A stretch of DNA of 38,641 nt from an uncultured Bacteroidia bacterium. GTDB lineage: Bacteria; Bacteroidota; Bacteroidia; Bacteroidales; UBA932. The translations under genes were made by a program, and so were the position numbers. The stretch is from positions 1 to 38,641 of the forward strand of contig CACXMA010000016.1 of the NCBI GenBank assembly GCA_902768665.1, written 5' to 3'. How positions within the stretch are numbered: position 1 is the stretch's first letter; each line of letters opens with the position of its first letter. A model generated the notes under the pieces. It had not been told where the DNA came from. It searched no databases and saw only the letters and a program-made list of their open reading frames with translations. Positions 825-25,681 of this stretch are shown in pieces.

Positions 825-851
825 GTCATTCCACGGCTTGTCCGTGGAATC
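825..851 (+). repeat. Hairpin repeat, copy A (forward)
   Basis: A 27-base element built from a 9-base arm (attccacgg), a 5-base loop (cttgt) and the complementary arm (ccgtggaat), flanked by gtc and c. It lies between the thioredoxin gene and uvrC, 5 bases before the uvrC start. A second palindrome, aatgacg...cgtcatt (811-830), abuts it. It is the reference copy of a family seen at six further places in this window. Confidence 0.85.
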
Positions 852-855
852 TTTT

Positions 856-2646
856 ATGACCGTTCGCGAGAAAATAGCATTATTCCCCCATTCCCCCGGC
901 GTCTACAGATACTATGACGCCGAGGGAAAAGTTATTTATGTAGGTAAGGCCAAGGACCTCCACAAGCGGGTGGCGCAGTATTTCGTACCGCCGGAGCGGC
1001 TCAACACGAAGACCCGCATCCTGGTCAGCAAAATCGCCGACGCACAGTATTCCGTGGTCGATTCCGAGGCGGACGCCCTGCTGCTGGAGAACAACCTCAT
1101 CAAGCAGTACAAGCCCCGCTACAACATCCTCCTCAAGGACTCGAAGACCTATCCCTGGATCTGTGTCACCGGCGGGGATTTCCCCCGCGTGTTCATCACG
1201 CGGCGGATCGACAAGGGCAACCGCTACTTCGGCCCCTACAGCAGCGCCCTGCATGCCCGCGGGTTTGTCGACTTCTTCCATGAAGTCTATGCCCTCCGCA
1301 CCTGCAACCTCAAAATCACCTCCGACGCCATCCTCCGCGGGAAGTTCCGCCCGTGCCTCAAGATGCATATCGGAAAATGCAAGGCCCCCTGCGTCGGCAA
1401 GATCTCCATGGCCGCTTACCAGGCCGACATCGACGAGATCGTACGTATCCTCAGCGGCCGCGGCGGGGAAGTCATCCGCCACTACAAGGCCCTCATGGCC
1501 GAAGCCGCCGAGCGCCTCGATTTTGAGACGGCGCAGGAGTACAAGCTCAAGATCGGCACCCTCGAGCGGCACTACGCCAAGTCCGTCATCACGCAGGCGG
1601 CCGACACCGACGCCGATGTCTTCTCGATGGTCTTCGACGGGGGAGAGGCCTTCGGCAACTTCCTCCGCATCCGCGGCGGTGCCATCGTCCAGTCCCTCAA
1701 TCTCGGTTTCCGCAGCCAGATCGAGGAGGAAAAGGAAACCCTCCTCGCAACCTTCATCGGCGAGATCGAGGACAAGTTCGGCGCCCTCTCCGGCGAGGTC
1801 ATCGTGCCGTTCCTGCCCGATGTCGAGATTCCCGGCGTGGAGTTCCGCATCCCCCAGCGCGGCGACAAGCTGTCCCTGCTGGAGCTGAGCGCCAAGAACG
1901 CCCGCGAGTTCTATGCCGGCAGCCTCCGTCAGCGCGAGCACACAGATCCCGACAGCTACAAGATGTCGGTGATGGAGGACCTCCGCAAGGCTCTCGGTAT
2001 GAAGGAGCTGCCGCGCCACATGGAGTGCTTCGACAACTCCAACATCCAGGGCACCAACCCCGTCGCCTCCTGCGTCGTGTTCCGCGACGGCGTGCCTTCC
2101 AAGAAGGATTACCGCCGCTTCAAGATCAAGACCGTCATCGGCGCCAACGACTTCGCCTCCATGAAGGAAGTCGTCAACCGCCGCTACGCCCGCATGCTGC
2201 AGGAGAACCCGGATGACCTGCCGCAGCTGATCGTCATCGACGGCGGCAAGGGCCAGCTCGAATTCGCCTACCAGGCGCTGCTGGAGCTGGATGTCCTCGA
2301 CCGGGTGACGGTCGTGGGCCTGGCCAAGCGCCTTGAGGAGGTCATCCGCGTCGGCGACCCCTATCCCCTTTTCATCGACCGGAACTCGCAGGCTCTCCGC
2401 GTGCTGCAGCAGATCCGTGACGAGGCCCACCGCTTCGGCATTACCTTCCACCGCAATCTCCGCTCCAAGGCGGCCATCCACAGCGCGCTCCGCGACATCA
2501 AGGGTGTCGGCGAGAAGACCGAGCAGCGCCTGCTGCTCCACTACGGCTCCGTCGCCCGCATCGCCGCGGCTCCGCTCGAAGACCTTTCCGCGCAGGTCGG
2601 CGCCGACCTCGCGATGCGTATCCACGATTATCTGAACAGTGAATAA
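856..2646 (+). CDS. uvrC: UvrABC excinuclease subunit C
   Basis: UvrC makes the 3' and 5' incisions on either side of a DNA lesion during nucleotide excision repair, after UvrAB has located it. The 596-residue product shows the family order: an N-terminal GIY-YIG nuclease (PGVYRYYDAEGKVIYVGKAKDLHKR split around residues 14-38), a UvrB-binding UVR segment (AAERLDFETAQEYKLKI), the C-terminal RNase H-like nuclease (MECFDNSNIQGTNPVASCVV and VIDGGKGQL), and a terminal helix-hairpin-helix (IKGVGEKTEQRLL). A TTG start at 838 would add MSVESF, but those codons come from hairpin repeat copy A, so the ATG at 856 is chosen. The gene is bracketed by inverted copies of that repeat. No promoter is evident. 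Confidence 0.97.
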   Translation: MTVREKIALFPHSPGVYRYYDAEGKVIYVGKAKDLHKRVAQYFVPPERLNTKTRILVSKIADAQYSVVDSEADALLLENNLIKQYKPRYNILLKDSKTYPWICVTGGDFPRVFITRRIDKGNRYFGPYSSALHARGFVDFFHEVYALRTCNLKITSDAILRGKFRPCLKMHIGKCKAPCVGKISMAAYQADIDEIVRILSGRGGEVIRHYKALMAEAAERLDFETAQEYKLKIGTLERHYAKSVITQAADTDADVFSMVFDGGEAFGNFLRIRGGAIVQSLNLGFRSQIEEEKETLLATFIGEIEDKFGALSGEVIVPFLPDVEIPGVEFRIPQRGDKLSLLELSAKNAREFYAGSLRQREHTDPDSYKMSVMEDLRKALGMKELPRHMECFDNSNIQGTNPVASCVVFRDGVPSKKDYRRFKIKTVIGANDFASMKEVVNRRYARMLQENPDDLPQLIVIDGGKGQLEFAYQALLELDVLDRVTVVGLAKRLEEVIRVGDPYPLFIDRNSQALRVLQQIRDEAHRFGITFHRNLRSKAAIHSALRDIKGVGEKTEQRLLLHYGSVARIAAAPLEDLSAQVGADLAMRIHDYLNSE

Positions 2647-2647
2647 A

Positions 2648-2674
2648 GATTCCACGGACAGGCCGTGGAATGAC
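2648..2674 (-). repeat. Hairpin repeat, copy B (reverse)
   Basis: Same 27-base element as copy A in the opposite orientation; it differs only by one loop base. It begins two bases after the uvrC stop and ends six bases before the pnuC start, so it fills the whole intergenic gap. Confidence 0.85.
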
Positions 2675-2679
2675 GAATT

Positions 2680-3417
2680 ATGACGGAAAAAGTATTCAAC
2701 AGATGGTTTAACATCTTCATCCTGGCGGGAATGACGATCGTCACCTGCCTGGTTACCTGGTTCAAGCTGGCGGATGCCGCCGGCGGCAGCGAGAAGGCCT
2801 GGCTCCTCCTGGCGGCCTTCGGGTCGCTGATGGGCGTGCTCGCGACCGTCTGCTCGGCCAACGGATGGATCATCACCTTCCTCTTCGGTTTTCTGGACGT
2901 CGCCATCTACGGCGTGGCCTGCTGGGTAAACTGGCGGGGCGGCGGGTCCGGCCTTGGGAATGCCATCCTCCACTTCGCCTATTTCGTTCCGATGCAGCTC
3001 GTCGGTTATCTCCAATGGCGCCGCCGCGGGGCCAAGGCCTCCTCGCAGGTGAAAGCCCGTCGGCTCCGTCCCTTCATGCGCTGGACCTGGCTGGCCATCA
3101 CCCTCGTCGCAACCGTCGTGCTGTATCTGATCCTGGCCCGCTTCGACCGAAGCGCCGCCGACAGCTTCCTCAAGGTGGCCGTGCTGCTGGATGCGATTCC
3201 GCTGGTGTGCAACATCATCGGACAGCTCCTTATGTCGACGGCCTACATGGAGCAGTGGATCTTCTGGCTGGCGGTCAATGTCACTTCCATCGGTATGTGG
3301 CTGTTCTCCGACAAGTCCTTTGCATCGGTCTATATCGTCAAGTACTCCTTCTACCTGATCAATGCCCTTAACGGCCTGAGAATCTGGCTGAAACTGAGCC
3401 GGCCCGAGGCAAAATAG
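2680..3417 (+). CDS. pnuC: PnuC-family vitamin-precursor transporter
   Basis: A 245-residue polytopic membrane protein with about seven hydrophobic segments, the first at residues 12-28. It fits the PnuC family, SWEET-like facilitators that let nicotinamide riboside (PnuC) or related vitamins such as thiamine (PnuT) enter the cell, where phosphorylation traps them. Family-like features are the long helix with SANGWIITFLFGFLDVAIYG, the WRRRG basic loop after helix 4, and the C-terminal QWIFWLAVNVTSIGMWLF and VKYSFYLINALNGL stretches. No TPP riboswitch fits in the 33-base gap upstream and no thiamine gene adjoins, so substrate is undecided between NR and thiamine. It follows uvrC closely, separated only by a hairpin repeat. 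Confidence 0.82.
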   Translation: MTEKVFNRWFNIFILAGMTIVTCLVTWFKLADAAGGSEKAWLLLAAFGSLMGVLATVCSANGWIITFLFGFLDVAIYGVACWVNWRGGGSGLGNAILHFAYFVPMQLVGYLQWRRRGAKASSQVKARRLRPFMRWTWLAITLVATVVLYLILARFDRSAADSFLKVAVLLDAIPLVCNIIGQLLMSTAYMEQWIFWLAVNVTSIGMWLFSDKSFASVYIVKYSFYLINALNGLRIWLKLSRPEAK

Positions 3418-3456
3418 CCTTCCCGTTCGTCGGCTTTTTCGGCAAAGATTTTCATA

Positions 3457-3480
3457 TTTGGGAAATTTTTCGTTACTTTG
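3457..3480 (+). promoter_or_regulatory. Promoter of acpP
   Basis: A Bacteroidota-type promoter: TTTG at 3457-3460 and TTACTTTG at 3473-3480 (seven of eight positions of TAnnTTTG), followed by CAG. The start site would fall near 3487, giving a leader of about 65 bases that is AT-rich before acpP. Confidence 0.6.
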
Positions 3481-3552
3481 CAGTCTGTATGCGTGGAGCA
3501 TGCATTAATATTGAAAGTTACTATTAAATAAATAAATCTAAACTTTACGATT

Positions 3553-3804
3553 ATGACACACGAAGAAATCGTTGCCAAGGTGAAAGAAATCATCGTCGAC
3601 AAGCTTGGCGCTGAAGAGTCTGAGGTTACCGAAACCGCTAACTTCACCAACGATCTGGGTGCTGATTCCCTCGACACCGTCGAGCTCCTTATGGAATTCG
3701 AGAAGGTTTTTGACGTCCGTATCCCGGATGAGGAGACCAGCGGCATCGCTACCGTCGCCGACGCTATCGCCAAGGTTGAAGAAAAACTCGCTGCCAAGGA
3801 GTAA
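3553..3804 (+). CDS. acpP: Acyl carrier protein
   Basis: The 83-residue acidic carrier that holds growing acyl chains during fatty acid synthesis and supplies lipid A and phospholipid synthesis. The phosphopantetheine attachment site is the serine in [16 protein letters not shown]. Three to four helices and the [16 protein letters not shown] segment are standard. In many Bacteroidota acpP is followed by fabF; here it stands alone, with its own promoter at 3457-3480 and a terminator at 3831-3860. Highly conserved and short, so the identification is firm. Confidence 0.97.
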
Positions 3805-3830
3805 TTCCCCTGCGATTTTTCACATACGAA

Positions 3831-3860
3831 AGAGACTGACCTTCCGGCCAGTCTCTTTTA
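3831..3860 (+). terminator. Rho-independent terminator after acpP
   Basis: Stem agagactg (3831-3838) pairs with cagtctct (3849-3856), followed by a short T run. A nearly identical hairpin lies at 4438-4470. Confidence 0.8.
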
Positions 3861-3866
3861 GTTTTA

Positions 3867-3898
3867 TTTGGTTTTTACATTCTTACTCCTTATTTTTG
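3867..3898 (+). promoter_or_regulatory. Promoter of the AT-rich lipoprotein gene
   Basis: TTTG at 3867-3870 and a perfect TAnnTTTG match, TATTTTTG, at 3891-3898, 20 bases apart. It lies just after the acpP terminator, so the next gene is probably an independent transcription unit. Confidence 0.5.
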
Positions 3899-3942
3899 AA
3901 GAAAAAATGGTCCACATCGTTCTGTGGTTATTGTAGATAGAT

Positions 3943-4407
3943 ATGAGGAATACCACATTGCTTCTATTATTATTGGCTTCTTTCCTTCTTGTCTCATGTG
4001 TATTAATTGCAGATCGTATTTATATCTTTACTTTTACAAATAATTCATCTGAACCGATAGGGATTATTGCAGATTTTTCACCTACAGATAATGCTATAAC
4101 CCGCGGGAGCTATTATGTAAAAGGGATTGCCCCGGGTGTGAAAGAAGCCGTGGATGACGACAGCAGTTGGAGAAAGAGGGTAAAAGATTCTATGCACTTT
4201 TATGTGGTAAGAGTGATACCAAGCCTCTCTGAGAAAAAGCAGCAAACACAATTATCAGAGTCGGATATTGAAAGGATATCCAACGAAGATATATATGCGA
4301 GGATAACGTACACAAAGAATGAATTTAAAGCCAGAGACTTTTGTTTTCCTCCGCCAAAAGGAACCAAGATTATTTATTATCCCGCATACTCAAATCTAAA
4401 GGAATAG
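3943..4407 (+). CDS. Small lipoprotein of unknown function
   Basis: I do not recognise this 154-residue protein. It begins with MRNTT, a poly-leucine hydrophobic core and a lipobox ending at Cys19 (LVSC), so it should be a lipid-anchored envelope protein. The mature part starts with a probable beta-rich stretch (RIYIFTFTNNSSEPIGIIADF) and later has a charged helical segment (SLSEKKQQTQLSESDIERIS). Base composition is visibly AT-rich and codon use differs sharply from the GC-rich neighbours (many TTA, ATA, AGA codons), which suggests recent acquisition. It lies exactly between two near-identical terminators and has its own promoter. Confidence 0.72.
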   Translation: MRNTTLLLLLLASFLLVSCVLIADRIYIFTFTNNSSEPIGIIADFSPTDNAITRGSYYVKGIAPGVKEAVDDDSSWRKRVKDSMHFYVVRVIPSLSEKKQQTQLSESDIERISNEDIYARITYTKNEFKARDFCFPPPKGTKIIYYPAYSNLKE

Positions 4408-4437
4408 CGAATCATCAGAAGAAGCGAGTATCTTGTT

Positions 4438-4470
4438 AGAGACTGACCTGCCGGCCAGTCTCTTTTTTTA
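4438..4470 (+). terminator. Rho-independent terminator after the lipoprotein gene
   Basis: Stem agagactg (4438-4445) with cagtctct (4456-4463) and a seven-base T run. It differs from the acpP terminator by a single base across the hairpin. Confidence 0.82.
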
Positions 4471-4496
4471 GATGTCCTGCATGCGCTGGGCATGAC

Positions 4497-4523
4497 GTCA
4501 CCCCACGGCTTGTCCGTGGGGTC
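4497..4523 (+). repeat. Hairpin repeat, copy C, with compensatory changes
   Basis: Same 27-base element as copy A, but TT in the left arm has become CC and the matching AA in the right arm has become GG, so the hairpin is fully paired. It overlaps the last base of the DUF4270 stop codon and could serve as the 3' end of that minus-strand transcript. Confidence 0.82.
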
Positions 4524-6163
4524 TATTCCTTCGGAATCGCGTAGGTGAGCGTCAGGGTCGGGACGCGGCCGCCGGGGGCGGAGGGGCCGAGGAGGCGGGC
4601 GCTGTAGTAGCGGTCGCGGTCCAGCTCGGTCGTGGTCGTTGTCGATGAGGATGAAGAATTCATCATCGCGGCCATCATCGCGTAATTATAATAATTGTAG
4701 TAGCTGTTGTAGCCGTATCCGCCGTAACCGTATCCACCATATCCGCCGTAACCGCCATAGCCGCCATAGCCGCTGTAGAGGCTGTTGAGGTAGCTGTAGT
4801 AGGCGAGATTCTGGTAATAGCTGTTGTCGGTGGTGTTGGCGGTCGTTTCCGTTTCCGTGGCCATGATCAGCAGCCAGATGTCGAAGTTGGACATATCCGT
4901 CCCTTCCTCCATCCGCAGAAGCTGCTGGAGATGGTGCGCTACGTCGGGGGAGTAGCAGAGGCGGTCGCGGTGGAGGCTGCCCTGGTCCTCATCCTTGGCG
5001 CTGGAGTCCGACAGTCCGGCGAAGCTCGCGCCGACTCCGTCGGTAATGATCCGGCAGGTAGGGCTGAGCACCGGCGGGAAGAAGGTCCCGAGGGCCTTGT
5101 AATCCCCGTCGTACTCGAACGGAAGGCTGATCTGCGCGCGGCTGATGACGGCCTTGGCCGGGTCTCCGTACTGGCCGATTTCGGCCTTGGCGGCATCCAG
5201 CAGGGCCTGGGCGTCGATGACGGGCTTGAGTCCGCCGCCGCCCTCGACCAGAAGGTCTGCGCCGGCGAGACCGGCCGCAGGGGCGCTCTCATGGCCGGTG
5301 AGATTGCAGGCGTACTGCGGGAATTTCTGCTTGTTGTTGATATAGGTCGCCTCGTCGAGGAAATCGGGCTCGCCGTAGATGAACAGGAAGCTCGTGTCCT
5401 TGCGGACGCCTTCATACTCGGCGTTGAAGTTGAGCCGGACGCAGTTGCCGTTGAGGAGATAGGTGCCGTAAGAGGCGCTGTAGGTCAGGCAGCCGAGCTC
5501 GAAGAGATTGATGCGGCCGCCGTTGCCGGTCGGGGGCTCGATTTCGAGGTAGAGGCCCGGGAAACGCTTGGTGAAGTTCGGGAGCGTGTCGGTATCCTCC
5601 TTGGTGATGGTCAGATAGCGCTCGGCGAACTTGCGGGAGAAATTGAAGCTGAGGGAATCCCCGCCGCCGTAGACGATACCGCCGTCGGTGATGGGCTCGC
5701 CCTTGTGGGGGACGGTGGCGTTGGTGCGGATCTTGGCGAGGTCGACGGGCTCGGCAAGTTCATAGACGCGCACGTTCTGGATGAGGTATCGGTCCGCCTC
5801 GGTCGCGACGGAAACGGTGTCGAGCGCCGCTGCGAAATGCATGTTCCGAAGGACGGGGTCCTTGCCGAAATCGAGATCCTCGAAGGCGGGAAGGAGCGTC
5901 AGCACGCAGCTTCTTGTCGTCAGTCCGAAACGGTCGTCGCGGACGGCGCCGAGGGCGATGCGTTTGGAAGACAGGCCGGACAGGCTGTCCGCCATCTCCA
6001 TCCGGATGCCCGTCAGGGGAATCTCGGCGGTGTGGATGTCGAACATCTGGTCGGTGGCGATCAGGTCTTTTCCGAGATTCTCATCTACGGAGACGCAGGA
6101 TGCACCGGTGAAAAGGGCAGCCGCAAGGGCTGAAAGGATTCTTACGGAAGTTTTGAGGTTCAT
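4523..6163 (-). CDS. DUF4270 domain-containing lipoprotein
   Basis: A 546-residue secreted lipoprotein with a signal peptide and lipobox ending at Cys23 (GASC). The DENLGKDLIATDQMFDIHTAEIPL start and the repeated beta-rich body match DUF4270, a Bacteroidota family typically encoded next to the short glycogen synthase, as it is here; its role is not established. Near the C-terminus is a low-complexity tract: tandem GGY units, then NYY repeats, MMAAMM, five serines and five threonines, before a conserved-looking end (LTLTYAIPKE). Start: the open frame reaches back to 6391 inside the upstream gene, but the ATG at 6163 gives the signal peptide and lies 4 bases after that gene's stop, so the two form an operon. 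Confidence 0.85.
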   Translation of the reverse strand: MNLKTSVRILSALAAALFTGASCVSVDENLGKDLIATDQMFDIHTAEIPLTGIRMEMADSLSGLSSKRIALGAVRDDRFGLTTRSCVLTLLPAFEDLDFGKDPVLRNMHFAAALDTVSVATEADRYLIQNVRVYELAEPVDLAKIRTNATVPHKGEPITDGGIVYGGGDSLSFNFSRKFAERYLTITKEDTDTLPNFTKRFPGLYLEIEPPTGNGGRINLFELGCLTYSASYGTYLLNGNCVRLNFNAEYEGVRKDTSFLFIYGEPDFLDEATYINNKQKFPQYACNLTGHESAPAAGLAGADLLVEGGGGLKPVIDAQALLDAAKAEIGQYGDPAKAVISRAQISLPFEYDGDYKALGTFFPPVLSPTCRIITDGVGASFAGLSDSSAKDEDQGSLHRDRLCYSPDVAHHLQQLLRMEEGTDMSNFDIWLLIMATETETTANTTDNSYYQNLAYYSYLNSLYSGYGGYGGYGGYGGYGYGGYGYNSYYNYYNYAMMAAMMNSSSSSTTTTTELDRDRYYSARLLGPSAPGGRVPTLTLTYAIPKE

Positions 6164-6167
6164 GCCG

Positions 6168-6998
6168 CTAGCCAAGGAACTGGTCGTAAAATTCGTTGTA
6201 CTCGTCGATATACCGGCCGTTTTCCTGAGCGATTTCGTTGAAAGGAAGGACGGGCAGGCCCAGTTCCTGTTCCCCATAACGCACGAGCTCCGGATCCACC
6301 TCCCCGTCGCCGAGGATAATGCCGTCGGAATACCGCTCTGCCAGTTTAGCAAGAGCCGTGCCATCGGGCTTGTCTCCGAGGATGGCGACATCCTTCGGCG
6401 TCACGGTCCCGAAGAGGATGCTCCGGGCCAGCTCCGGGGAGAAATGCTCCTTCGGCGTGTCTCCGTATAGGGACAGGACTACCTTGCTCTGCGAGAAGAT
6501 CGGGTCGTCCTTGTAAGCTTTCTTGAGGTAGAGGGGCAGGACATGGGAAATCCAGCCGTGGCAGTGGATGATGTCCGGGGCCCAGCGCTGTTTCTTGACC
6601 GTCTCCAGGACGCCGCGGGCGAAGAAGATGGCTCTTTCGCCGTTGTCCTCGAAGAACTTTCCGGAAGCGTCGGCAAAGGTCTGCTTGCGGCGGAAGTAAT
6701 CCTCGTTGTCGATGAAATAGACCTGCAGGCGGGCGGCGGCGATGGACGCGACCCGGATGACGAGCGGGCGGTCGACGTCGTCAATGATGATGTTCATGCC
6801 GGAGAGGCGGATTACCTCATGCAGCTGGTGCTTCCGTTCGTTGATGCAGCCGTAGCGGGGCATGAACGGACGGACTTCCTTGCGTCTTTCCTGGATTCCC
6901 TGCGGAAGGTATCTTCCGATGCGGGCAATCCGGGACTCCGGGAGGTAGGGTTCTATCTCGGAATTGACGAAGAGGACTCTTTTGACGGTATCGGCCAT
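6168..6998 (-). CDS. Short glycogen/starch synthase-like protein (GT5 N-terminal domain)
   Basis: A 276-residue protein related to the N-terminal half of GT5 glycogen synthase, which transfers glucose from ADP-glucose or UDP-glucose to glycogen. It has a Rossmann-type start (RVLFVNSEIEPYLPES) and the PDIIHCHGWISHVLPLYLK motif of the family. Full GlgA proteins are about 480 residues; this short form lacks the C-terminal nucleotide-sugar binding domain with its KTGGL-like motif. Short forms like this are common in Bacteroidales beside a DUF4270 gene, so it is not a local truncation. Whether it catalyses glycogen synthesis is doubtful. A minus-strand -7 box lies at 7019-7026. Confidence 0.82.
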   Translation of the reverse strand: MADTVKRVLFVNSEIEPYLPESRIARIGRYLPQGIQERRKEVRPFMPRYGCINERKHQLHEVIRLSGMNIIIDDVDRPLVIRVASIAAARLQVYFIDNEDYFRRKQTFADASGKFFEDNGERAIFFARGVLETVKKQRWAPDIIHCHGWISHVLPLYLKKAYKDDPIFSQSKVVLSLYGDTPKEHFSPELARSILFGTVTPKDVAILGDKPDGTALAKLAERYSDGIILGDGEVDPELVRYGEQELGLPVLPFNEIAQENGRYIDEYNEFYDQFLG

Positions 6999-7018
6999 AC
7001 TTTTCTTCTTTATTCCTA

Positions 7019-7026
7019 CAAAGATA
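7019..7026 (-). promoter_or_regulatory. -7 box for the glycogen synthase-DUF4270 operon
   Basis: On the minus strand this reads TATCTTTG, a perfect TAnnTTTG. It sits inside a small palindrome (ttccta 7013-7018, taggaa 7025-7030). The -33 element is not clear. The start codon is about 20 bases downstream. Confidence 0.5.
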
Positions 7027-7058
7027 GGAATTTTTTTCCATAAAACTGCGATAATTGC

Positions 7059-7066
7059 TATCTTTG
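7059..7066 (+). promoter_or_regulatory. -7 box for the ftsX operon
   Basis: TATCTTTG, a perfect TAnnTTTG, 20 bases before the ftsX ATG. With the box at 7019-7026 it forms a compact divergent promoter region. Confidence 0.5.
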
Positions 7067-7086
7067 GAGCGAATTTGGGACATTGT

Positions 7087-7971
7087 ATGCCGAAAAGAGA
7101 GAACAGAAAAACCGTGCGCCGGCTGCTTTCAGCCTACCTTTCCTCCGTCATCAGCATTTCCCTCGTGCTCCTGCTTCTCGGGATCGCGACGGCCCTGCTG
7201 CTGAACGCCCGGAAGGTGTCGGACTACATCCGCAGCAACATGCAGGCGGAGGTTTTTCTCGCCGAGGGGGTGACCCCGGCGCAGGCGGAAATCTTCGCCC
7301 GGAAGCTCTCGGACGTGAGCGGCGTTTCGTCCGTCCGTCTCGTTTCCGAGGAGGAGGGGCGAAAGGAGCTGCTGGAGACCTTCGGCGAGGACTTTCTCGA
7401 CGTGTTCGAGGAGGTCGCTATCCCGCTTTCCTGCGAAGTAACCCTCGAGCCCGGTTATGTCTCGTCGGACAGCCTCGCCCGCGTCGGGGAGCGGATTTCG
7501 GCCTTCCCGGAGGTGGAATCCGTCAATTATCCCGCCGCTTTTGTGGACAAGCTCAACGACAACCTCGGCAAGATCGGCCTCGTGCTGGGCCTGCTGATCG
7601 CGGCGAGCCTGTTCATCTCCTTCGTGCTCATCGGCAACACCGTCCGCATCAATGTCTTCAACCGCCGCTTCACGATCCATACGATGAAGCTCGTCGGTGC
7701 GACGAAAGGCTTCATCCGCCGGCCGTTCATGGTCCGAGCGGTCTTCCAGGGGCTGGCTTCGGCGCTGCTGGCGCTCGGCTGGATGGCCCTGCTGCTGCTT
7801 CTGCTGCGGCACGAGTCCGCCGGCGGCTATGCGCTGCTGCTGGCCGACCGCGAGACGCTGCTGGCGGTGGCGGGCGTAGTGGTCGCCGCGGGTGTGGTCC
7901 TCTGCCTGGTGAGCACCTACTGGAGTGTCAACCGGCTTCTCGCCATGAAAAAGGAACAATTGTATTATTGA
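7087..7971 (+). CDS. ftsX: Cell-division ABC transporter permease FtsX
   Basis: FtsX pairs with the ATPase FtsE and, at the septum, activates peptidoglycan hydrolases from across the membrane. The 294-residue product has a cytoplasmic basic N-terminus, a first helix (SVISISLVLLLLGIATALLL), a large extracytoplasmic loop of about 120 residues, and three C-terminal helices with the family motif RFTIHTMKLVGATKGFIRRPF between helices 2 and 3. An in-frame upstream start at 6964 would add 41 residues but runs through the promoter box, so the ATG at 7087 is preferred. ftsE is not adjacent. The next gene, DUF3098, begins 3 bases after the stop, a common Bacteroidota arrangement. Confidence 0.93.
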   Translation: MPKRENRKTVRRLLSAYLSSVISISLVLLLLGIATALLLNARKVSDYIRSNMQAEVFLAEGVTPAQAEIFARKLSDVSGVSSVRLVSEEEGRKELLETFGEDFLDVFEEVAIPLSCEVTLEPGYVSSDSLARVGERISAFPEVESVNYPAAFVDKLNDNLGKIGLVLGLLIAASLFISFVLIGNTVRINVFNRRFTIHTMKLVGATKGFIRRPFMVRAVFQGLASALLALGWMALLLLLLRHESAGGYALLLADRETLLAVAGVVVAAGVVLCLVSTYWSVNRLLAMKKEQLYY

Positions 7972-7974
7972 TAT

Positions 7975-9056: not shown

Positions 9057-9059
9057 CCG

Positions 9060-10429: not shown

Positions 10430-10447
10430 GTCGGAGGCATGGATATG

Positions 10448-10455: not shown

Positions 10456-10483
10456 AGGCCGTTTTTTGAAAAAAGCATACCCT

Positions 10484-10515
10484 GTCATTTCGAGCGGGCG
10501 CATTGAGTCGAGAAA
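10484..10515 (-). repeat. Dispersed repeat of a second family (intergenic copy)
   Basis: Read on the minus strand it runs from tttctcgactc to gctcgaaatgac. A related sequence, starting atttct and ending gtcgaaatgac, occurs in frame inside the transglutaminase-like gene at 22588-22623 directly before a hairpin repeat. Such elements are widespread in genomes of gut bacteria. Confidence 0.55.
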
Positions 10516-10641
10516 GCTGTATAGGTGCCATGTCGAAAATGCGGGTAAAAACTTTTCAACAATATTTGTAACTCGCGAAAAAACAATAAGATAACTTGCA
10601 AAAAACATTGTCGAAAATGTTTAAAAATTTTTGAAAAAGTA

Positions 10642-15914: not shown

Positions 15915-15916
15915 CA

Positions 15917-17251: not shown

Positions 17252-17276
17252 TTTTTTGAAATAAAGTCAGAGTAAG

Positions 17277-18056: not shown

Positions 18057-18083
18057 GTGTGACACGTAAATTTAGTATAGACA

Positions 18084-18302: not shown

Positions 18303-18314
18303 AAACGCAATACA

Positions 18315-18431: not shown

Positions 18432-18468
18432 TCGTCAACTTGTATAACAAATTAGCACTAGATAAATT

Positions 18469-18846: not shown

Positions 18847-18858
18847 GCGTAGAAAGTT

Positions 18859-19248
18859 ATGGCAAAGAAAACAACAACCACCAAGAAAAGAGTTGTCAAA
18901 GTCGAAGCCCTCGGCCAGGCCCATGTGTCTTCCACTTTCAACAACGTCATCGTTTCGCTCACCAACGCCCAGGGCCAGGTTATCAGCTGGTCTTCCGCAG
19001 GTAAGTGCGGTTTCCGCGGTTCCAAGAAGAACACCCCTTACGCCGCCCAGATGGCTGCTGAGGACGCCGCCAAGACGGCTTTCGACGCCGGTCTTCGCAA
19101 GGTGAAGGTGTACGTCAAGGGTCCCGGTGCAGGCCGTGAGTCCGCTATCCGTACCATCAACAACGCCGGTATCACCGTCACCGAGATCATCGACGTGACC
19201 CCGATGCCGCACAATGGTTGCCGCCCGAAGGGACGCCGTAAAGTTTAA
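18859..19248 (+). CDS. rpsK: 30S ribosomal protein S11
   Basis: S11 (uS11), 129 residues, lining the platform near the mRNA exit. It has a lysine-rich N-terminal tail, then [20 protein letters not shown] and the C-terminal [18 protein letters not shown], which is nearly invariant across bacteria. Confidence 0.98.
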
Positions 19249-19271
19249 TTAACCCTTAAAGAAGAATCATT

Positions 19272-19874
19272 ATGGCAAGATATACCGGTCCCCAGACCCG
19301 CATCGCCCGCAAATTCGGCGAGCCCATCTATGGCCCTGACAAGAACTTCGAGAAGCGCAACACCCCTCCGGGACAGCATGGTCTCGCAGCGAAGCGCAAA
19401 AAACAGAAGGAATACGGTACCCAGCTCAAGGAGAAGCAGAAAGTCAAATATATGTACGGTGTGCTCGAGCGCCAGTTCCGCAACACCTACGAGAAGGCTT
19501 CCCGCATGAAGGGCCAGAAGGGTGAGAACCTCCTCTTCCTCCTCGAGTCCCGTCTCGACAACGTCGTTTACCGTCTCGGTATCGCTCCGAGCCGTCCGGC
19601 GGCCCGTCAGCTCGTCCTTCACCGCCACATCACCCTCAACGGCGAGATCTGCAACATCCCGTCCGCTCAGGTGAAAGCCGGTGACACCGTCGCTGTCCGC
19701 GAGCGTTCCAAGAGCCTTGAGGTCATCCAGGCCAGCGTTGCCTCCGCCAACAAGTATGCTTGGCTTGAGTTCGACGCCAACACCCTCGTCGGCAAGTTCC
19801 TCAACATCCCGGCCCGCACCGAGATCCCCGAGAACATCAACGAGCAGCTGATCGTCGACCTCTACTCCAAGTAA
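19272..19874 (+). CDS. rpsD: 30S ribosomal protein S4
   Basis: S4 (uS4), 200 residues, a primary 16S-binding protein at the mRNA entry channel. The N-terminus is the zinc-free type ([20 protein letters not shown]). An S4-type RNA-binding domain follows ([38 protein letters not shown]). In E. coli S4 represses the alpha operon; no such site is shown here. Confidence 0.98.
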
Positions 19875-19895
19875 CCGATAAACACCAGAATAATT

Positions 19896-20903
19896 ATGGC
19901 AATCTTAGCATTTCAAAAACCGGACAAAGTGATCATGCTCGAAGGTACCGATACCCTCGGCCGGTTCGAGTTCAGGCCGCTTGAGCCTGGCTACGGAACG
20001 ACCATCGGTAACGCCCTCCGCCGCATCCTCCTTGCGTCCCTCGAAGGTTTTGCCATCTCCTCCATCAAGATCTCCGGCGTCAACCAGGAGTTCGACACCA
20101 TCCCGGGTGTGATCGAGGGCATGCAGGACATTATCCTCAACCTCAAGCGCGTCCGCGTGAAGAGGATGGTTGAGACCGTGGACAGCGAGACGGCGAACAT
20201 TACCATCAGCGGCAAGCAGGAGTTTACCGCCGATGATATCTCGAAGGGATTGTCTTCTTTCCAGGTGTTGAATCCGGAACTGCACATCTGCTCTCTCGAA
20301 CCTTCCGTCAAGCTCGAAATCAACCTGACCATCACCAAGGGCCGTGGCTATGTCCCCGCCGATGAGATGCGCGATGAGAATACCCCCATCGGCACCATCC
20401 CCGTGGACGCCATCTACACCCCGGTCGTGAAGGTCAACTGGACTGTCGAGCCCTGGCGTGTCGAGCAGAAGACCGACTATGAGAAGCTCAACCTCGAGAT
20501 CCGCACCGACGGCTCCATCAGCCCGAACGCCGCTCTCCAGGATGCAGCCAACATCCTCATCTATCACTTCAAGCTCTTCACCGACGACAAGAAGCTCACG
20601 CTCGAGAGCCCGGTCGAGACCGAATCCAAGGAACTCGACGAGGAATCCCTCCGGATGCGTCATCTCCTTCTCACCAAGCTTTCCGACATGGGTTTGAGCG
20701 TCCGCGCTTACAACTGTCTGAAGGCCGCCGAGATCGATACTTTCGCCGACCTTGTCTCCTACCAGAGAAGCGAACTGATGAAGTTCCGCAACTTCGGCCG
20801 CAAGTCCCTCAACGAAATCGACCTCCTCGTGGAGAAGATGAAGCTTTCCTTCGGGATGGATGTCACCAAGTACAATATTGAACCCAAGAAAAAGAACGAT
20901 TAA
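19896..20903 (+). CDS. rpoA: DNA-directed RNA polymerase subunit alpha
   Basis: A 335-residue subunit that dimerises to nucleate RNA polymerase assembly. The N-terminal domain shows [20 protein letters not shown], and the C-terminal domain, which contacts UP elements and activators, shows LGLS-like [18 protein letters not shown] and [20 protein letters not shown]. Both domains are complete. It lies between rpsD and rplQ as usual. Confidence 0.98.
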
Positions 20904-20905
20904 AA

Positions 20906-21397
20906 ATGAGACACAATAAAGCCGTCAATCATCTGGGTCGCAAGAGCGGTCACCGCAAAGCCCTTCTCGCCAACATGGCCTGCTCTCTCATCATCAAGAA
21001 GAGAATCACGACCACCGAGGCCAAGGCTAAGGCCCTCAAGGAGTACGTTGAGCCGCTGATCACCAAGTCCAAGGATGACTCCACCCACTCCCGCCGCGTC
21101 GTCTTCAGCTACCTGAAGGACAAATACGCAACGGCCGAGCTCTTCCGCACCGTCGCTCCGAAGGTCGCTGACCGTCCCGGTGGATACACCCGTATCCTCC
21201 ACCTCGGTTTCCGCCAGGGTGACGCCGCTTCCGTCGTCATGATGGAGCTGGTCGACTTCAACGAAGCCGCCCTCGCCTCCGCCAAGAAGGAAGCCAAGAA
21301 GACGACCCGCCGCAGCCGCGCCAAGAAGGCCGAGACTGCTGCCGAGGCCCCCGCAGTTGAAGCTCCCGCCGCCGAGGCTGAAGCTCCCGCTGAGTAA
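20906..21397 (+). CDS. rplQ: 50S ribosomal protein L17
   Basis: L17 (bL17) lies near the exit tunnel. The conserved first 120 residues start [20 protein letters not shown] and include [20 protein letters not shown]. The 163-residue length reflects a low-complexity tail, first lysine/arginine-rich and then alanine/glutamate/proline-rich, as often seen in Bacteroidota. Two bases after rpoA and last gene of the operon. Confidence 0.96.
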
Positions 21398-21481
21398 TCG
21401 GGCACGGAATCGGGCATTTTCGTGCCCGAACAGAGAATTTTTCCCCAATCGGGCACAAAAATGCGTTTTTTTGTGCCCGAT
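21398..21481 (+). terminator. Nested palindromes closing the ribosomal operon
   Basis: The sequence tcgggcac or its complement gtgcccga occurs five times in 84 bases, with slight truncation. Two hairpins are evident: cgggca (21411-21416) with tgcccg (21423-21428), and a perfect 14-base arm pair 21448-21461 with 21468-21481 around a six-base loop. The second has A-rich then T-rich arm ends and could end transcription from either side. Confidence 0.65.
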
Positions 21482-21498
21482 TTCGTATATTCGTCTCT

Positions 21499-24204
21499 AT
21501 GAAAAGAATCTGGATCCCTATCGTGGCGCTGATCGTCGGTGCCTGCAGCCCGAAAGAAGTGCACTTTCTGAGCGACGAGGGCTACCGCGCGGCGGTGGAG
21601 GAGGCGCTGGAGGAGCGGCTTTCTGCCCATGACGGCGCCCTGCGGCCGTTCTGCGCCATCCCGGAAGATGCGACCCTTCGCGAAAAGGAGGCGCTGGAGT
21701 TCCTCTATGCCTACATGCCGTTGGCGGACCTGACGGATTATCCGACAGCGTTCTATCTGGATAATGTCCGGGCCTCGCTGCGGACGGCGGAGGAGATGGG
21801 CTGGAATGTCCCCGAGCGGGAGTTCCGCCATTTCGTGCTGCCGCTGCGGGTCAACAACGAGAATCTGGACTCATCCCGCGTGGTTTTCTACCGCGAGCTG
21901 AAGCCGCGGGTGGAGGGCCTGCCGATGCGGGAGGCCATCCTGGAAGTGAACCACTGGTGCCACGAAAAGCTGACCTACCAGCCGTCGGATGCCCGGACGC
22001 TGTCGCCGCTGGGGTCCCTGAAAAACGCGCTCGGCCGCTGCGGCGAGGAGTCGACTTTCTGCGTCGCCGCCCTTCGCAGCGTCGGCATTCCGGCGCGGCA
22101 GGTTTACACGCCGCGATGGGCCCACACCGATGACAACCATGCCTGGGTTGAGGCCTGGGCGGACGGACAGTGGTACTTCATGGGCGCCTGCGAGCCCGAG
22201 CCGGTGCTGAATCTTGGCTGGTTCAATGCGCCCGCTTCCCGCGCCATGCTCATGCACACGAAGGTGTTCGGCCGCTACGACGGCCCCGAGGAGAAGGTGT
22301 TGGAAAGCCCGAATTACACGGAAATCAACCTCATAGACAATTACGCCAAGACCGCGAAAGTGGACTTCACCGTGATCGACGGAGACGGCGCACCGGTCGA
22401 GGGCGCCCGCGTCGATTTCTGTATCTACAACTATGCGGAGTTCTATCCGGCGCTGAGTAAATATACGGACGCGGAAGGCCGCACGAGCCTTTCCGCCGGC
22501 CTCGGCGACCTGCTCGTCTGGGCGTCGAAGGAGGGGGCGTTCGGCTATAAGAAGGCCTCGTTCGGGAAGGACGGGGAGGTGCGGATTGAGATTTCTCCGC
22601 TCGCTTCGCTCGGTCGAAATGACAATCCGTCATTCCGCGGCTTGTCCGTGGAATCCGTGACCGTCGTGCCGCCGCCGGAGGGCGCGAACATCCCGCCGGT
22701 AACGCCCGAGCAGCGCGCGGAGAACGATCGCCGCTTTGCCCGGGAGGATTCCCTCCGCCATGCCTACGAGGCGACGTTCCCGACCCACGACGAGGCCCTT
22801 GCCTTCGTGCAGGGGCAGGGTTATGGCCACCACATGGCCGCTCCGATCCTCGCTTCCCGCGGCAACTGGGAGACCATCGAGGCCTTCATGCCCATGAGCG
22901 GCAACCACGAGCGGGTCGAGCAGGTGCTGACGGCCCTCAGCGGCAAGGACCTGAAGGATGCCCCGCTGGAAGTCCTGCAGGACTACTATGCCGCGGACCG
23001 TTTCCTCGGCGCCCGTGTCGAGAATGAGTTCCTGACGCCTTTCTACGGCTACTTCCGGGAGCATTTCACGGACGCGGTCGCTTCGCCGGAGGCGCTTGTG
23101 GAGTGGGTCCGGAACCATGTTACCGTCCTGGACAGTCCGCTTGCCTGGAACATCCCCATGAGCCCCGCCGCGGTGTTCGAAAGCGGTCTGGCCCTGCCCC
23201 GCAGCCGCGACATCTTCTTTGTCTCGCTGGCCCGGGCGCTCGGTTTTGAGGCGCAGAAGGATCCCGTCACCGGCAAGGTCCAGTACCGGCAGGACGGCGA
23301 GTGGTTCGACGTCCACTTCGACGGCGCCCCGGCGGCCAAGGCCCCGACCGGCATCCTGCGGCTCAGCTATTCGCCGACCCGCGCCATCCCGAATCCCGGC
23401 TACTACAGCCACTTTACGATTTCCCGCCTCGTCAGTGGCCGGCCGCGGCTGCTGACTTTCGATGAGGGCGAAGTCGACATGGGCGGCGGCGTGGACTGGG
23501 AGCATGTCTTCCGCTCCGGCTATCCGCTGGAGACGGGGCAGTATCTGCTGGTGAGCGGCAACCGCAGCTCCGACGGCTCCGTGCCCGTAACGATGAAGTT
23601 CTTCTCGATCAAAGAGGGAGAGACTACGACCGTCGATCTCGTCATCCGCGAGGAGGAGGGGAAGGTCGGCGTGATCGGCAGCTTCGACGCCGAGACGCTG
23701 TACACACAGATGCCCGATCAGGTCGGGCATGACGACTCGTCATTCCACGGGGTAGGGCATGACGACCCGTCATTCCACGGCTTGTCCGTGGAATCTATCC
23801 CCCGCCAGTCTGTCCTTTCCGCCGTCGGCCGCGGCTTCTATGCCCTGGCGGTCGTGGAGCCCGGCAAGGAACCGACCAACCATTTCCTGCGGGATCTGGC
23901 GGCTGTCCGGGAGGCGATGGAGACGTGGGGAAGGCCGATCCTGCTGCTGACGGAAAGCACGGCAGCTATGGAGAAACTGACGGCGGAAATCCGCGCCGGT
24001 CGCTATGGGAAGCTGCCGGCAACGGTACTTTTCGGCATCGATACCGGCGGGATCCGTGGATCGATCACGTCATCCGGCGGCTTGGCCGCGGGATCTCTTC
24101 CCGTGGTCATCCTCGCCGACAGCTTCAACCGCGTATTCTTCAGCTCCGAGGGCTACTCCATCGGTCTCGGCGCCCGGCTTTGCGATGTCATCAACCGCCT
24201 GTAA
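21499..24204 (+). CDS. Transglutaminase-like domain lipoprotein with in-frame repeat insertions
   Basis: A 901-residue predicted envelope lipoprotein (lipobox ending at Cys16, VGAC). Residues about 150-240 form a transglutaminase-like (papain-fold) domain with Cys181 in GRCGEESTF and His214 in DDNHAWVEAW; the third acidic residue is probably in GACEPEP. A carboxypeptidase-regulatory-like beta domain follows (VIDGDGAPVEGARVDF). The rest is a large region of unknown role. Similar large proteins occur in Bacteroidota; substrates are unknown. Three segments encoded by dispersed repeats lie in frame at residues about 364-386, 738-766 and 857-866, reading PSFRGLSVES or PSFHGLSVES. A weak -7 like box (TATATTCG, 21487-21494) lies very close to the ATG. 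Confidence 0.83.
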   Translation: MKRIWIPIVALIVGACSPKEVHFLSDEGYRAAVEEALEERLSAHDGALRPFCAIPEDATLREKEALEFLYAYMPLADLTDYPTAFYLDNVRASLRTAEEMGWNVPEREFRHFVLPLRVNNENLDSSRVVFYRELKPRVEGLPMREAILEVNHWCHEKLTYQPSDARTLSPLGSLKNALGRCGEESTFCVAALRSVGIPARQVYTPRWAHTDDNHAWVEAWADGQWYFMGACEPEPVLNLGWFNAPASRAMLMHTKVFGRYDGPEEKVLESPNYTEINLIDNYAKTAKVDFTVIDGDGAPVEGARVDFCIYNYAEFYPALSKYTDAEGRTSLSAGLGDLLVWASKEGAFGYKKASFGKDGEVRIEISPLASLGRNDNPSFRGLSVESVTVVPPPEGANIPPVTPEQRAENDRRFAREDSLRHAYEATFPTHDEALAFVQGQGYGHHMAAPILASRGNWETIEAFMPMSGNHERVEQVLTALSGKDLKDAPLEVLQDYYAADRFLGARVENEFLTPFYGYFREHFTDAVASPEALVEWVRNHVTVLDSPLAWNIPMSPAAVFESGLALPRSRDIFFVSLARALGFEAQKDPVTGKVQYRQDGEWFDVHFDGAPAAKAPTGILRLSYSPTRAIPNPGYYSHFTISRLVSGRPRLLTFDEGEVDMGGGVDWEHVFRSGYPLETGQYLLVSGNRSSDGSVPVTMKFFSIKEGETTTVDLVIREEEGKVGVIGSFDAETLYTQMPDQVGHDDSSFHGVGHDDPSFHGLSVESIPRQSVLSAVGRGFYALAVVEPGKEPTNHFLRDLAAVREAMETWGRPILLLTESTAAMEKLTAEIRAGRYGKLPATVLFGIDTGGIRGSITSSGGLAAGSLPVVILADSFNRVFFSSEGYSIGLGARLCDVINRL
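22588..22655 (+). repeat. Composite insertion: second-family repeat plus hairpin repeat copy D
   Basis: Bases 22588-22623 resemble the repeat at 10484-10515 (starting gagatttct, ending tcgaaatgac). Bases 22629-22655 are the 27-base hairpin element with one arm change that keeps a G-T pair. The whole is in frame within the transglutaminase-like gene. Confidence 0.75.
23710..23795 (+). repeat. Composite insertion with hairpin repeat copy E
   Basis: It begins with a 21-base palindrome (atgcccga, loop tcagg, tcgggcat; 23710-23730), continues with a truncated start of the hairpin element (gtcattccacgg, 23739-23750), then a further gggcatgacgac unit, and ends with a full 27-base hairpin element at 23769-23795 identical to copy A. 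All in frame, giving the repeated peptides VGHDDSSFHG and VGHDDPSFHG. Confidence 0.8.
24069..24095 (+). repeat. Degenerate hairpin repeat, copy F
   Basis: It matches copy A at 21 of 27 positions. Two of the changed arm pairs are compensatory (T-A to C-G, A-T to G-C), and eight of nine arm pairs remain. It encodes SSGGLAAGS within the transglutaminase-like protein. Confidence 0.55.
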
Positions 24205-24205
24205 T

Positions 24206-24829
24206 ATGGAGAAGAAAGACTATCAGGGAAAGGAGGTCCGTCTGTGCGAGGACGGGAAATACCGCTGGCTCTATGAAATGAACATGTTTCGGAACCCGAC
24301 CATCATCCTGACGGTCGCGAAGGTCCTCGGCGGGGTGCTTCTCGGTCTGTGGCTCGTGTTTGGGCTGCTTCTCAGTGCCATCGAGGGGAACTGGGACGGA
24401 CTGCTGGGAATGACCAGGGTGCTAGGCATCGTGATGGGGGTGATGGCCGTGCTGCTCGTCATCGCCTATCTGATCCTCTGCTGGATGTACCATGGCAAGT
24501 ATATCGTCCTCTTCGAGATGGATGAGAAAAGCATCAAGCATATCCAGCTCCCGCGCCAGTTCAAGCGGGCGCAGGCGATGGGCCTCATCACCGCGCTGGT
24601 GGGCCTTGCCGCCAAACGGCCGACCACGGCCGGCGCCGGCCTTCTCTCCGCGACCAGACAGGCCTCGACCTCCGATTTCAAATACGTCAAAAAAGTGAAG
24701 GCCTATCCCCGCCGGCACCTCATCAAGGTCAACGAGACCCTCAATAAGAACCAGGTCTACGCTGCGACGGAGGACTTCGACTTCGTCCTCGACTGGATCC
24801 GCACCCGTTGTATCAATGCAAAGTCTTAA
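24206..24829 (+). CDS. Two-helix membrane protein of unknown function
   Basis: I do not recognise the family. The 207-residue product has a charged N-terminus (MEKKDYQGKEVRLCEDGKYR), two hydrophobic helices at roughly residues 32-55 and 72-92, and a cytoplasmic C-terminal half of mixed alpha/beta character with YIVLFEMDEKSIKHIQLP and basic stretches, reminiscent of small bacterial PH-like membrane proteins, but this is only an impression. Start: ATG at 24206, one base after the preceding stop; an in-frame ATG at 24005 lies inside the upstream gene. ksgA starts 3 bases after its stop, so the three genes probably form an operon. Confidence 0.75.
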   Translation: MEKKDYQGKEVRLCEDGKYRWLYEMNMFRNPTIILTVAKVLGGVLLGLWLVFGLLLSAIEGNWDGLLGMTRVLGIVMGVMAVLLVIAYLILCWMYHGKYIVLFEMDEKSIKHIQLPRQFKRAQAMGLITALVGLAAKRPTTAGAGLLSATRQASTSDFKYVKKVKAYPRRHLIKVNETLNKNQVYAATEDFDFVLDWIRTRCINAKS

Positions 24830-24832
24830 TAT

Positions 24833-25681
24833 ATGGAAGTACGAGCAAAAAAGGCCCTCGGCCAGCATTTCCTTACCGATCAGAAGGTCGCCCGCGCCAT
24901 TGTCGACGCGCTTCAGATTCCACGGACGAGCCGTGGAATGACGGATTCGTCCTGGCCGGCGGATGCGGAGACGCCGTTCCCCGTTCTGGAGGTGGGTCCC
25001 GGCATGGGCGTTCTGACGCAGTATCTGCTGGAAAGGGCGGATGTGGACCTGCGGCTGGTGGAGATCGACACCGAGTCGGTGGAATACCTGCTGACCCATT
25101 TTGCGGGGATGCAGGGCCGGCTGATGGAGGCCGATTTCCTGACCCTGAAGCTGGAGAAGATCTTCCCGGAGCAGTTTGCCGTCATCGGAAACTTCCCCTA
25201 CAACATCTCCTCGCAGATCTTCTTCAAGGTCCTGGACTACCGGGAGCGGATTCCGCAGGTGGTCGGTATGGTCCAGAAAGAAGTGGCCGAGCGCATCGCA
25301 GAGAAGCCCGGTTCGAAGACTTATGGCATCCTCTCCGTGCTCCTGCAGGCCTGGTATGACATCGAATACCTCTTCACGGTCGGCTCGGGCTGCTTCGCCC
25401 CGCCGCCGAAGGTGGAATCCGCCGTCATCCGCCTGACCCGCAACGGTCGGAGCGCCCTCGGCTGCGACGAGGCCCTGTTCACGACCGTGGTCAAGACCGC
25501 TTTCGGCCAGCGCCGGAAAATGCTCCGGAACCCCCTCAAACCGCTTGCCCGCGCCAAGGCCGACCGGCTCGGCTGGAGCGAGGAGCAGCTGACGGAATTC
25601 CTGGCCGCGGAGGTCTTCTCGCGCCGTCCGGAGACGCTGTCCGTCGAGGATTTTGTCGCGCTGACAAACCTTCTGGCATAA
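24833..25681 (+). CDS. rsmA: 16S rRNA (adenine1518/1519-N6)-dimethyltransferase with a repeat insertion
   Basis: RsmA (KsgA) dimethylates two adjacent adenines in the 3' hairpin of 16S rRNA, a late check in 30S assembly. The 282-residue product has the N-terminal VRAKKALGQHFLTD, SAM motif I VLEVGPGMGVLTQYLLE, and the catalytic NFPYNISSQIFFK. Between the first helix (ARAIVDAL) and motif I lies extra sequence starting QIPRTSRGMTDSS, encoded by a reverse-orientation hairpin repeat at 24916-24942; homologues normally have only a few residues here. The frame stays open and the C-terminal RNA-binding domain (RPETLSVEDFVALTN) is intact, so the enzyme is probably functional. Confidence 0.95.
   Translation: MEVRAKKALGQHFLTDQKVARAIVDALQIPRTSRGMTDSSWPADAETPFPVLEVGPGMGVLTQYLLERADVDLRLVEIDTESVEYLLTHFAGMQGRLMEADFLTLKLEKIFPEQFAVIGNFPYNISSQIFFKVLDYRERIPQVVGMVQKEVAERIAEKPGSKTYGILSVLLQAWYDIEYLFTVGSGCFAPPPKVESAVIRLTRNGRSALGCDEALFTTVVKTAFGQRRKMLRNPLKPLARAKADRLGWSEEQLTEFLAAEVFSRRPETLSVEDFVALTNLLA
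24916..24942 (-). repeat. Hairpin repeat, copy G, inside ksgA (reverse)
   Basis: The 27-base element in reverse orientation, with perfect 9-base arms (24917-24925 and 24931-24939) and a single loop change relative to copy A. It is read in frame as IPRTSRGMT. Confidence 0.87.

Follow-up and report, generated by a model that had tools for sequence, protein, structure and literature searches.

A CGTC-tagged hairpin repeat amplified in the genome of an uncultured Bacteroidales bacterium

The closest described relatives of the element presented here are the repetitive extragenic palindromes (REPs) that carry a CGTC tag, whose hosts include Bacteroidetes (PMC3733652; Di Nocera, De Gregorio, Rocco 2013). 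According to the parts of that paper on which we draw throughout, the tails of CGTC REPs mostly fit CCA, no dedicated transposase was known for them and their mobiliser was an open question in 2013. The same parts mention, for GTAG clusters, tandem reiteration together with flanking DNA, and describe different REPs at about the same site in recB of two Xanthomonas species. For Rickettsia palindromic elements (RPEs), solvent-exposed sites have been reported (PMC3767692, likewise used in part). The later open-licence literature that we could consult, a search with most subscription journals outside it, names no transposase for CGTC REPs, and the portion of PMC5896051 available to us holds nothing on CGTC repeats beyond a citation of PMC3733652. 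Our element is a 27-nt hairpin, found in a 38,641-nt stretch of DNA from an uncultured Bacteroidia bacterium (assembly GCA_902768665.1, contig CACXMA010000016.1, positions 1 to 38,641; hereafter the window). We read it, with a probability of roughly 0.75, as a family of CGTC-tagged REP hairpins that is specific to this species and whose multiplication in the genome is recent.

The host genus is probably Cryptobacteroides: the nearest named relatives of its uvrC are uncultured Bacteroidales (best 87%, roe deer abomasum), with Candidatus Cryptobacteroides at 72-73%. In the open-licence literature, papers holding both "Cryptobacteroides" and "palindrom" have neither term in title or abstract. Genomes, contigs and loci are given below as G, C and L numbers, G000 being the genome of the window.

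Genome-wide amplification and arm covariation

The hairpin is real and amplified genome-wide. Its exact stem occurs 61 times in the 2.03-Mb genome, a draft in 26 contigs that is 88% complete, where about 2e-7 copies would be expected by chance. Arms plus the flanking GTC and C gave 81 matches at up to two mismatches, spread over at least 18 contigs, and 106 at up to three (reversed control, 1), a number that counts some palindromes on both strands. A reading of the window made from sequence alone had proposed a dispersed hairpin with co-varying arms from seven copies, a proposal that few or no further copies would have undone; the count bears it out. Among 400 genus genomes, the exact stem was found in six (G000 61, its sister species G102 15, and one each in G056, G098, G236 and G263) and was absent from the other 394. 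A looser pattern covering the hairpin ends only (GTCATNCC-10 to 15-GGNATC) gave 693 matches in 25 genus genomes (reversed 11), with 164 in G000, 83 in G003 and 78 in G019; across 40 relatives the load ranged from 0 (G009) to 83 (G003), and other stems, e.g. ATGCCCGG and ATCCCCGG, appear among the matches listed. Phage carriage was dropped as an explanation, viral contigs giving 0 exact-stem matches. The G236 copy (locus L361, G236:C62) lies on a contig of which 1.1 kb is 99.9% identical to G000:C14, though that genome is filed as another species; given this identity, the contig is likely a case of mis-binning or of very recent transfer.

The 223,079 bases fetched around copies yielded 149 matches at up to six mismatches, for which three random resamplings estimate 8, 10 and 14. 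By the rule used, these comprise 113 full hairpins, 35 left halves and one right half. Where a full copy carries one change in each arm, the changes stand at partner positions and are compensated (12/12); of the eight full copies with two changes in each arm, five are wholly compensated and three not at all. Across 35 distinct copies, 96.2% of cells are paired versus 87.2% after shuffling, and 29 cells are double-changed versus 5.0, a number reached by 0/500 shuffles; "further pair types" are a weaker signal (10 versus 8.0, 40/500 shuffles). Paired cells, double-changed cells and score are all much lower in the slid controls. The alignment excluded copies with six-nt loops and two of 37 distinct 27-nt sequences, which lack a GTC/ATC start, and shared descent may inflate the counts. 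The compensatory excess anticipated from the window is present among copies across the genome.

The coding test described below took 102 of the 149 matches, half copies, matches with 4-nt loops and those with fewer than seven pairs being dropped. In these full copies, the unpaired 5' foot reads CGTC in 95, TGTC in four, CATC in two and CTTC in one, and the loop has 5 nt in 93 and 6 nt in nine (4-nt loops having been filtered out beforehand). The stem has 9 bp; among the distinct copies, pair 1 is A-T in 35/35 and pair 2 is T-A in 28, C-G in six and unpaired in one. A strict head-to-head partner stands within 60 nt of 28/101 copies and of none in the control region, a rule that misses degenerate partners. 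High copy number, arm covariation, the unpaired 5' tag and the partners of some copies agree with the sequence-only suggestion of a REP element or bacterial interspersed mosaic element. Its other suggestion, a miniature inverted-repeat transposable element (70-300 bp, terminal inverted repeats, target duplication), is not supported: the element is 27 nt long, without internal sequence and without visible target duplication, and the P-type ATPase site described below has no obvious duplication, though the relatives compared there have diverged.

The copies in the window and their surroundings are as follows.

791..816, minus strand: partner hairpin of copy A, GTCATTGCCGGCGGATGCGGGCAATC type, head-to-head
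825..851, plus strand: copy A, full element, between a thioredoxin-like gene and uvrC, with its head-to-head partner at 791-816
2648..2674, minus strand: copy B, full element, beginning 2 nt past the last base of the uvrC stop
4471..4496, minus strand: partner hairpin of copy C, head-to-head
4497..4523, plus strand: copy C, full element, with compensated ACCCC/GGGGT arms
21499..24204, plus strand: transglutaminase-like gene (PF01841) that holds the firm full copies D and E, a half copy and the doubtful copy F
22590..22623, minus strand: partner hairpin of copy D, GTCATTTCGA... type, head-to-head, likewise in frame
22629..22655, plus strand: copy D, full element, in frame in the transglutaminase-like gene
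23709..23733, minus strand: partner hairpin GTCATGCCCGACCTGATCGGGCATC, found in the sister G102 too, with G102's own half copies
23739..23768, plus strand: stutter unit, a left-arm-only half copy with duplicated upstream flank
23769..23795, plus strand: copy E, full element, in frame in the transglutaminase-like gene
24069..24095, plus strand: copy F, degenerate and doubtful, 8/9 pairs, common to G102, mixed length evidence
24833..25681, plus strand: ksgA/rsmA gene bearing an insert (TIGR00755, 252 bits)
24916..24942, minus strand: copy G, full element, in frame in ksgA/rsmA, peptide QIPRTSRGMT
24949..24972, plus strand: degenerate head-to-head partner of copy G within the same ksgA insert, judged by eye

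The seven 27-mers, like the truncated copy at 23739, stand at the places and on the strands first reported. Copy C carries the described double change of TT/AA to CC/GG, copy D the G-T pair, and the remaining copies bar F vary in the loop (CTTGT, CCTGT, CTCGT). The account of copy F stood in part: its two compensatory pairs are there, together with a G-G mismatch that had gone unmentioned. Copies D, E and G, the truncated copy and the doubtful copy F lie inside coding genes, a point absent from that first reading, as were the assignment to the CGTC-tagged class and the pattern in the truncated copies. Copy F is common to G102 (loop there CTTGT), which the other three coding sites compared in G102 are not, and its site measures 41 residues here, 43-49 in 4/11 congener rows and 31-32 in the other seven; owing to this sharing and the mixed lengths, copy F may be either an old insertion or a chance match. 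A further GTCATTTCGAGCG-type repeat was seen at window positions 10484-10518, near the start of the ribosomal protein cluster.

In-frame copies and orthologous sites

With a coding signal required on both sides, and a score calibrated on its own training genes, 26/102 full copies were in frame within genes (23 reading frames), 10 were ambiguous and 66 not genic. The ksgA copy scored as not genic, its upstream flank probably being too short, and is therefore extra to the 26; those at 23769 and 24069 scored as ambiguous. The peptides encoded by the 26 are SFHGLSVES or a variant (16), DSTDKPWND or a variant (5), IPRTSRGMT or a variant (3) and HSTACPWN (2), and one of the element's six frames has a stop codon. 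The bias towards one frame (16/26, nominal p 4e-6 against 1/5, some copies sharing a gene) would fit purifying selection on the inserted peptide and an insertion preference alike. Genic copies occur in either orientation, and the hairpin often sits in frame within genes that look intact. In an alignment with solved KsgA chains, the ksgA insert shows up as extra residues directly ahead of the GPGxG motif, which we take to be the S-adenosylmethionine-binding motif. A DNA alkylation repair gene (PF08713, G000:C11:1175-1993) was seen to hold, in frame, an array of three elements and a repeat of a second type; a distance of 7 nt separates the end of its reading frame from that of a RAYT-like gene (RAYT, REP-associated tyrosine transposase).

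Orthologues in related genomes, where the sequence-only reading had proposed looking for empty sites, are indeed shorter at the site or hold other GTC-tagged repeats. A clean case is a P-type ATPase gene (C12:42381; TIGR01525; 23/29 loci read), in which a stretch between motifs has 45 residues here and 35 in 22/22 relatives read (28 loci), a gain of exactly 30 nt, three more than the 27-mer. For the transglutaminase gene (usable frame in 12/16 loci, picked from 30), the 22629 region has 41 residues against 28-37 and the 23739-23795 region 55 against 27-42 in 11 congener rows. The loop of a galactarate/altronate dehydratase-like gene (C6:121566) runs to 44 residues in this genome, against 37-38 for most of the relatives read; three relatives with 43, 58 and 60 residues hold other palindrome-like inserts. 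In ksgA, the distance between motifs is 44 here, 25-26 in G003, G017, G041 and G044 and up to 110 in other congeners, with different GTC-tagged repeats in the loops of G019 and G005. In the hutI loop (29/30 loci read), other GTCAT-type repeats occur in G044, G019, G056, G053 and G006, and many others are short. Repeat types are exchanged within the same loop in ksgA, hutI and rsmE; some congeners have palindromes without a GTC tag in the ksgA and hutI loops. Judged by such sequence comparisons, the evidence for apparent gene invasion and turnover at fixed loops in this genus is clear. Separately, loci L262, L267, L294, L215, L291 and L268 show other palindromic inserts in congener genes, among them related inserts with GACTTTGGCCCTTACGAACAGG in two different genes (in reverse-complement form in L262), and in ksgA of G017 one palindrome type is inserted twice.

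The sister species G102 shares roughly 80-95% nucleotide identity with G000 in the stretches found. It was compared at six G000 places, a sample that is not random because the places were picked for a nearby G102 copy; of eight G102 loci fetched, two were without a match in the G000 sequence fetched. Four places appear to be common to both genomes (C9:69489, C1:85076, C14:89198 and C1:194890, the last in a repetitive stretch). A GTCATTTCGA-type repeat takes up the corresponding place in G102 both at the rsmE copy (C1:183166; TIGR00046) and at C1:143719; C1:145087 could not be aligned. Within the window, the 22629 pair (copy D and its partner) is missing from G102. At 23709-23795 that genome has the partner hairpin alone, accompanied by two G102 half copies, and the insert in its ksgA loop is longer and of another kind. 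In G102 (locus L374, G102:C33; window 24810-29273), the ksgA block (24831-26839) is also inverted and exchanged with 26852-29176, and an element copy stands at one breakpoint of this rearrangement, C33:9880.

Half copies, candidate enzymes and possible modes of spread

Left halves of the element are frequent. In the fetched stretches, exact 12-mers of the left end occur 69 times inside exact full copies and 40 times outside, those of the right end six times outside, and some outside 12-mers merely have a mutated other arm. Among 34 half copies, the break falls within the loop or the initial five right-arm bases in 33 and at the left-arm end in one, a clustering conditional on the choice of half copies for an intact left arm, which conceals any break inside that arm. 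With an 8-base seed (139 occurrences), divergence sets in at the loop or by base 22 in 39 and at base 26 in one. For the 19 half copies that lie elsewhere than in the 40-nt island arrays, 94/114 spacer bases are identical with the upstream flank. By its sequence, the stutter unit is upstream flank plus left arm, an apparent tandem duplication with one end inside the hairpin, and this repetition of the flank suggests replication pausing and slippage at the hairpin as the simplest cause. Most of the 15 island units match their upstream flank weakly; these units may be older or have spread as modules. A larger mobile unit, considered for long repeats that pair arrays about 300-800 nt apart, was set aside when the 12 regions compared, with no gene search inside them, turned out to be mosaics of palindrome-rich modules. 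Mosaics of several hundred bases, joining such modules with element arrays, were seen at G000:C11:9900-10800, C21:1-1500, C2:102050-102750 and elsewhere.

In keeping with the sequence-only reading, 20 window open reading frames compared with Pfam included no transposase and five without any family, the remaining frames not being scanned. No Y1 gene was found on this contig with Pfam Y1_Tnp, which detects two in the genome, C5:20694 and C11:379. A Y1/RAYT gene flanked by element copies, as that reading had envisaged, did not turn up: neither gene is bracketed by the element, and a dedicated transposase beside it was dropped for both. The C5 gene is bracketed by different hairpins of its own with GTGG/GTAG feet, the pair GTGGCTACCCTCC...GGAGGGTAG standing on both sides (locus L079 6300-7640; G000:C5:20299-21639), unrelated to the element. 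The C11 gene has no bracketing pair in about 300 nt upstream or downstream, and its nearest element copies lie about 480 nt downstream, inside the DNA alkylation repair gene. Both proteins match NF047646 below its cut-off and keep what we take to be the HuH motif and a candidate catalytic Tyr. Among 19 Y1 loci examined, a frame was found at eight, with hairpins of another kind near six of these.

One of these two proteins might move the element in trans as single-stranded DNA, as in a RAYT-dependent REPIN. Their NF047646 matches and presumed motifs would suit this, as would the head-to-head arrangement at 28/101 copies, the recognition by such enzymes of a hairpin plus unpaired tag (PMC6006769, parts consulted) and, in G008, a GTC-tagged hairpin 77 nt behind a Y1 gene, on one side only. 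The absence of bracketing element copies speaks against it, and Y1 genes and repeats do not go together: G009 has four Y1 hits and 0 looser-pattern matches, whereas 21 matches in G001 and 22 in G014 come with no Y1 hit (genomes 74% and 70% complete). Alternatively, spread could need no transposase and proceed by template switching or hairpin-primed errors of replication or repair, the same process as in the stutter arrays; the left half copies with duplicated flank, the in-place swapping of repeat types at orthologous sites and the lack of a known transposase for the class (PMC3733652) would all fit. Copies on at least 18 contigs and gains at a distance, of which the 30-nt ATPase insert is a clean example, do not, as template switching is mostly local. 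The Y1 genes are unbracketed and their number does not follow repeat load, in a sample with many incomplete genomes; we hold a trans-acting Y1 protein to be a tentative, somewhat doubtful explanation and replication-based copying to be slightly more doubtful still. Selection on folding as a functional RNA element (terminator or mRNA stabiliser) would account for the covariation and for copy B directly behind the uvrC stop, yet about a quarter of copies lie in reading frames, in either orientation, species restriction and same-site turnover misfit a conserved regulatory function, and Rfam at gathering score matched only a tRNA in the window, with no family for the element; we consider it improbable. 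An assembly or binning artefact, conceivable in a draft of this kind and in view of the G236:C62 contig, is scarcely credible with copies on so many contigs, 394/400 congeners without any, and 15 exact copies in G102, some at places common to G000 and some not.

Several points weigh against recent multiplication of a CGTC-tagged REP family specific to this species. The genomes used are drafts, movement itself is inferred, and some sister comparisons align poorly (C1:142219 region). The 3' tail is CTN in 91/102 full copies and CCA in three; since most, not all, tails of the class are said to fit CCA, we treat CTN as a variant rather than an exclusive feature. Strict partners at 28/101 copies would set the element apart from the mostly dimeric CGTC class (PMC3733652). 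The selection behind the clustered breaks belongs here too, and with the 8-base seed 30/139 occurrences diverge inside the left arm, in an unsorted mix with other stem variants. No mobilising enzyme was identified among the two Y1 genes tested, other transposase types not having been searched genome-wide, and Y1 number, rejected as a predictor, is uncorrelated with repeat load (Spearman 0.17, n=25 genus genomes, many incomplete).

If the family did multiply recently, copies would be pasted into new places via a folded single strand by a trans-acting factor, with the unpaired (C)GTC serving as guide. Gene-breaking copies would be lost, and the survivors would be found in permissive loops and in frames that are tolerated; local growth would follow when replication pauses in the hairpin, slips back and duplicates the upstream flank with the left arm. 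Across the genus, species may each have bred their own GTC-tagged hairpins, which replace one another in the same permissive loops of housekeeping proteins and spread by an enzyme or by replication error leaving left-half stutters, a broader picture to which we give even odds. If true, it would provide a gut-bacterium counterpart of Rickettsia's coding palindromes, i.e. large-scale palindromic insertion into proteins outside reduced intracellular genomes, and a tractable place to find the mover of CGTC REPs. The genus offers at least 400 species genomes, with several own variants, element-free sites, sister-species differences and in-frame gene insertions, resources that make a comparative screen for a gene tracking repeat load possible.

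Comparison with described repeat systems

We place the element in a known class of repeats, of which it is an apparently new member specific to this species, and it fits the CGTC-tagged REP superfamily as set out in the parts of PMC3733652 used here, in this case in a Bacteroidales genome. In common with CGTC REPs, it has a CGTC foot, a 9-bp stem (ATTCCACGG) starting with A-T and then mostly T-A, and a 5-nt loop; the class takes in TGTC and CCTC feet, stems of 8-9 bp and loops of 4-5 nt. Head-to-head partners (at some copies), intragenic units, copies without an adjoining transposase (as judged from the two Y1 genes) and a patchy species distribution are shared as well. Arrays of left half copies and same-loop exchange between congeners are seen here and were not met among the CGTC REP features in the parts of PMC3733652 consulted. 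Neisseria dRS3 (CGTC-1 in that paper) belongs to the same superfamily by its tag; unlike our element, it has an 8-bp stem, a 4-nt loop and large clusters in Neisseriae. With RAYT-linked REP/REPIN sequences, as presented in the parts of PMC6006769 used, the element shares a short hairpin, an unpaired tag at the 5' foot and RAYT-like genes in the genome, but its foot is CGTC rather than GTAG/GTGG, and its copies flank neither RAYT-like gene as a bracketing pair.

The in-frame copies resemble Rickettsia RPE-4, RPE-6 and RPE-7, which likewise appear as in-frame gene insertions with differing types at the same place of orthologues, and the ATGAC motif common to these three is the complement of GTCAT here (PMC3767692, parts used). 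The hosts differ, a high-G+C gut Bacteroidales here and an obligate intracellular alphaproteobacterium for RPEs, as do the sizes, RPE lengths running from 84 to 142 among the table rows seen in PMC3767692 against the clean 30-nt ATPase insert of our element.

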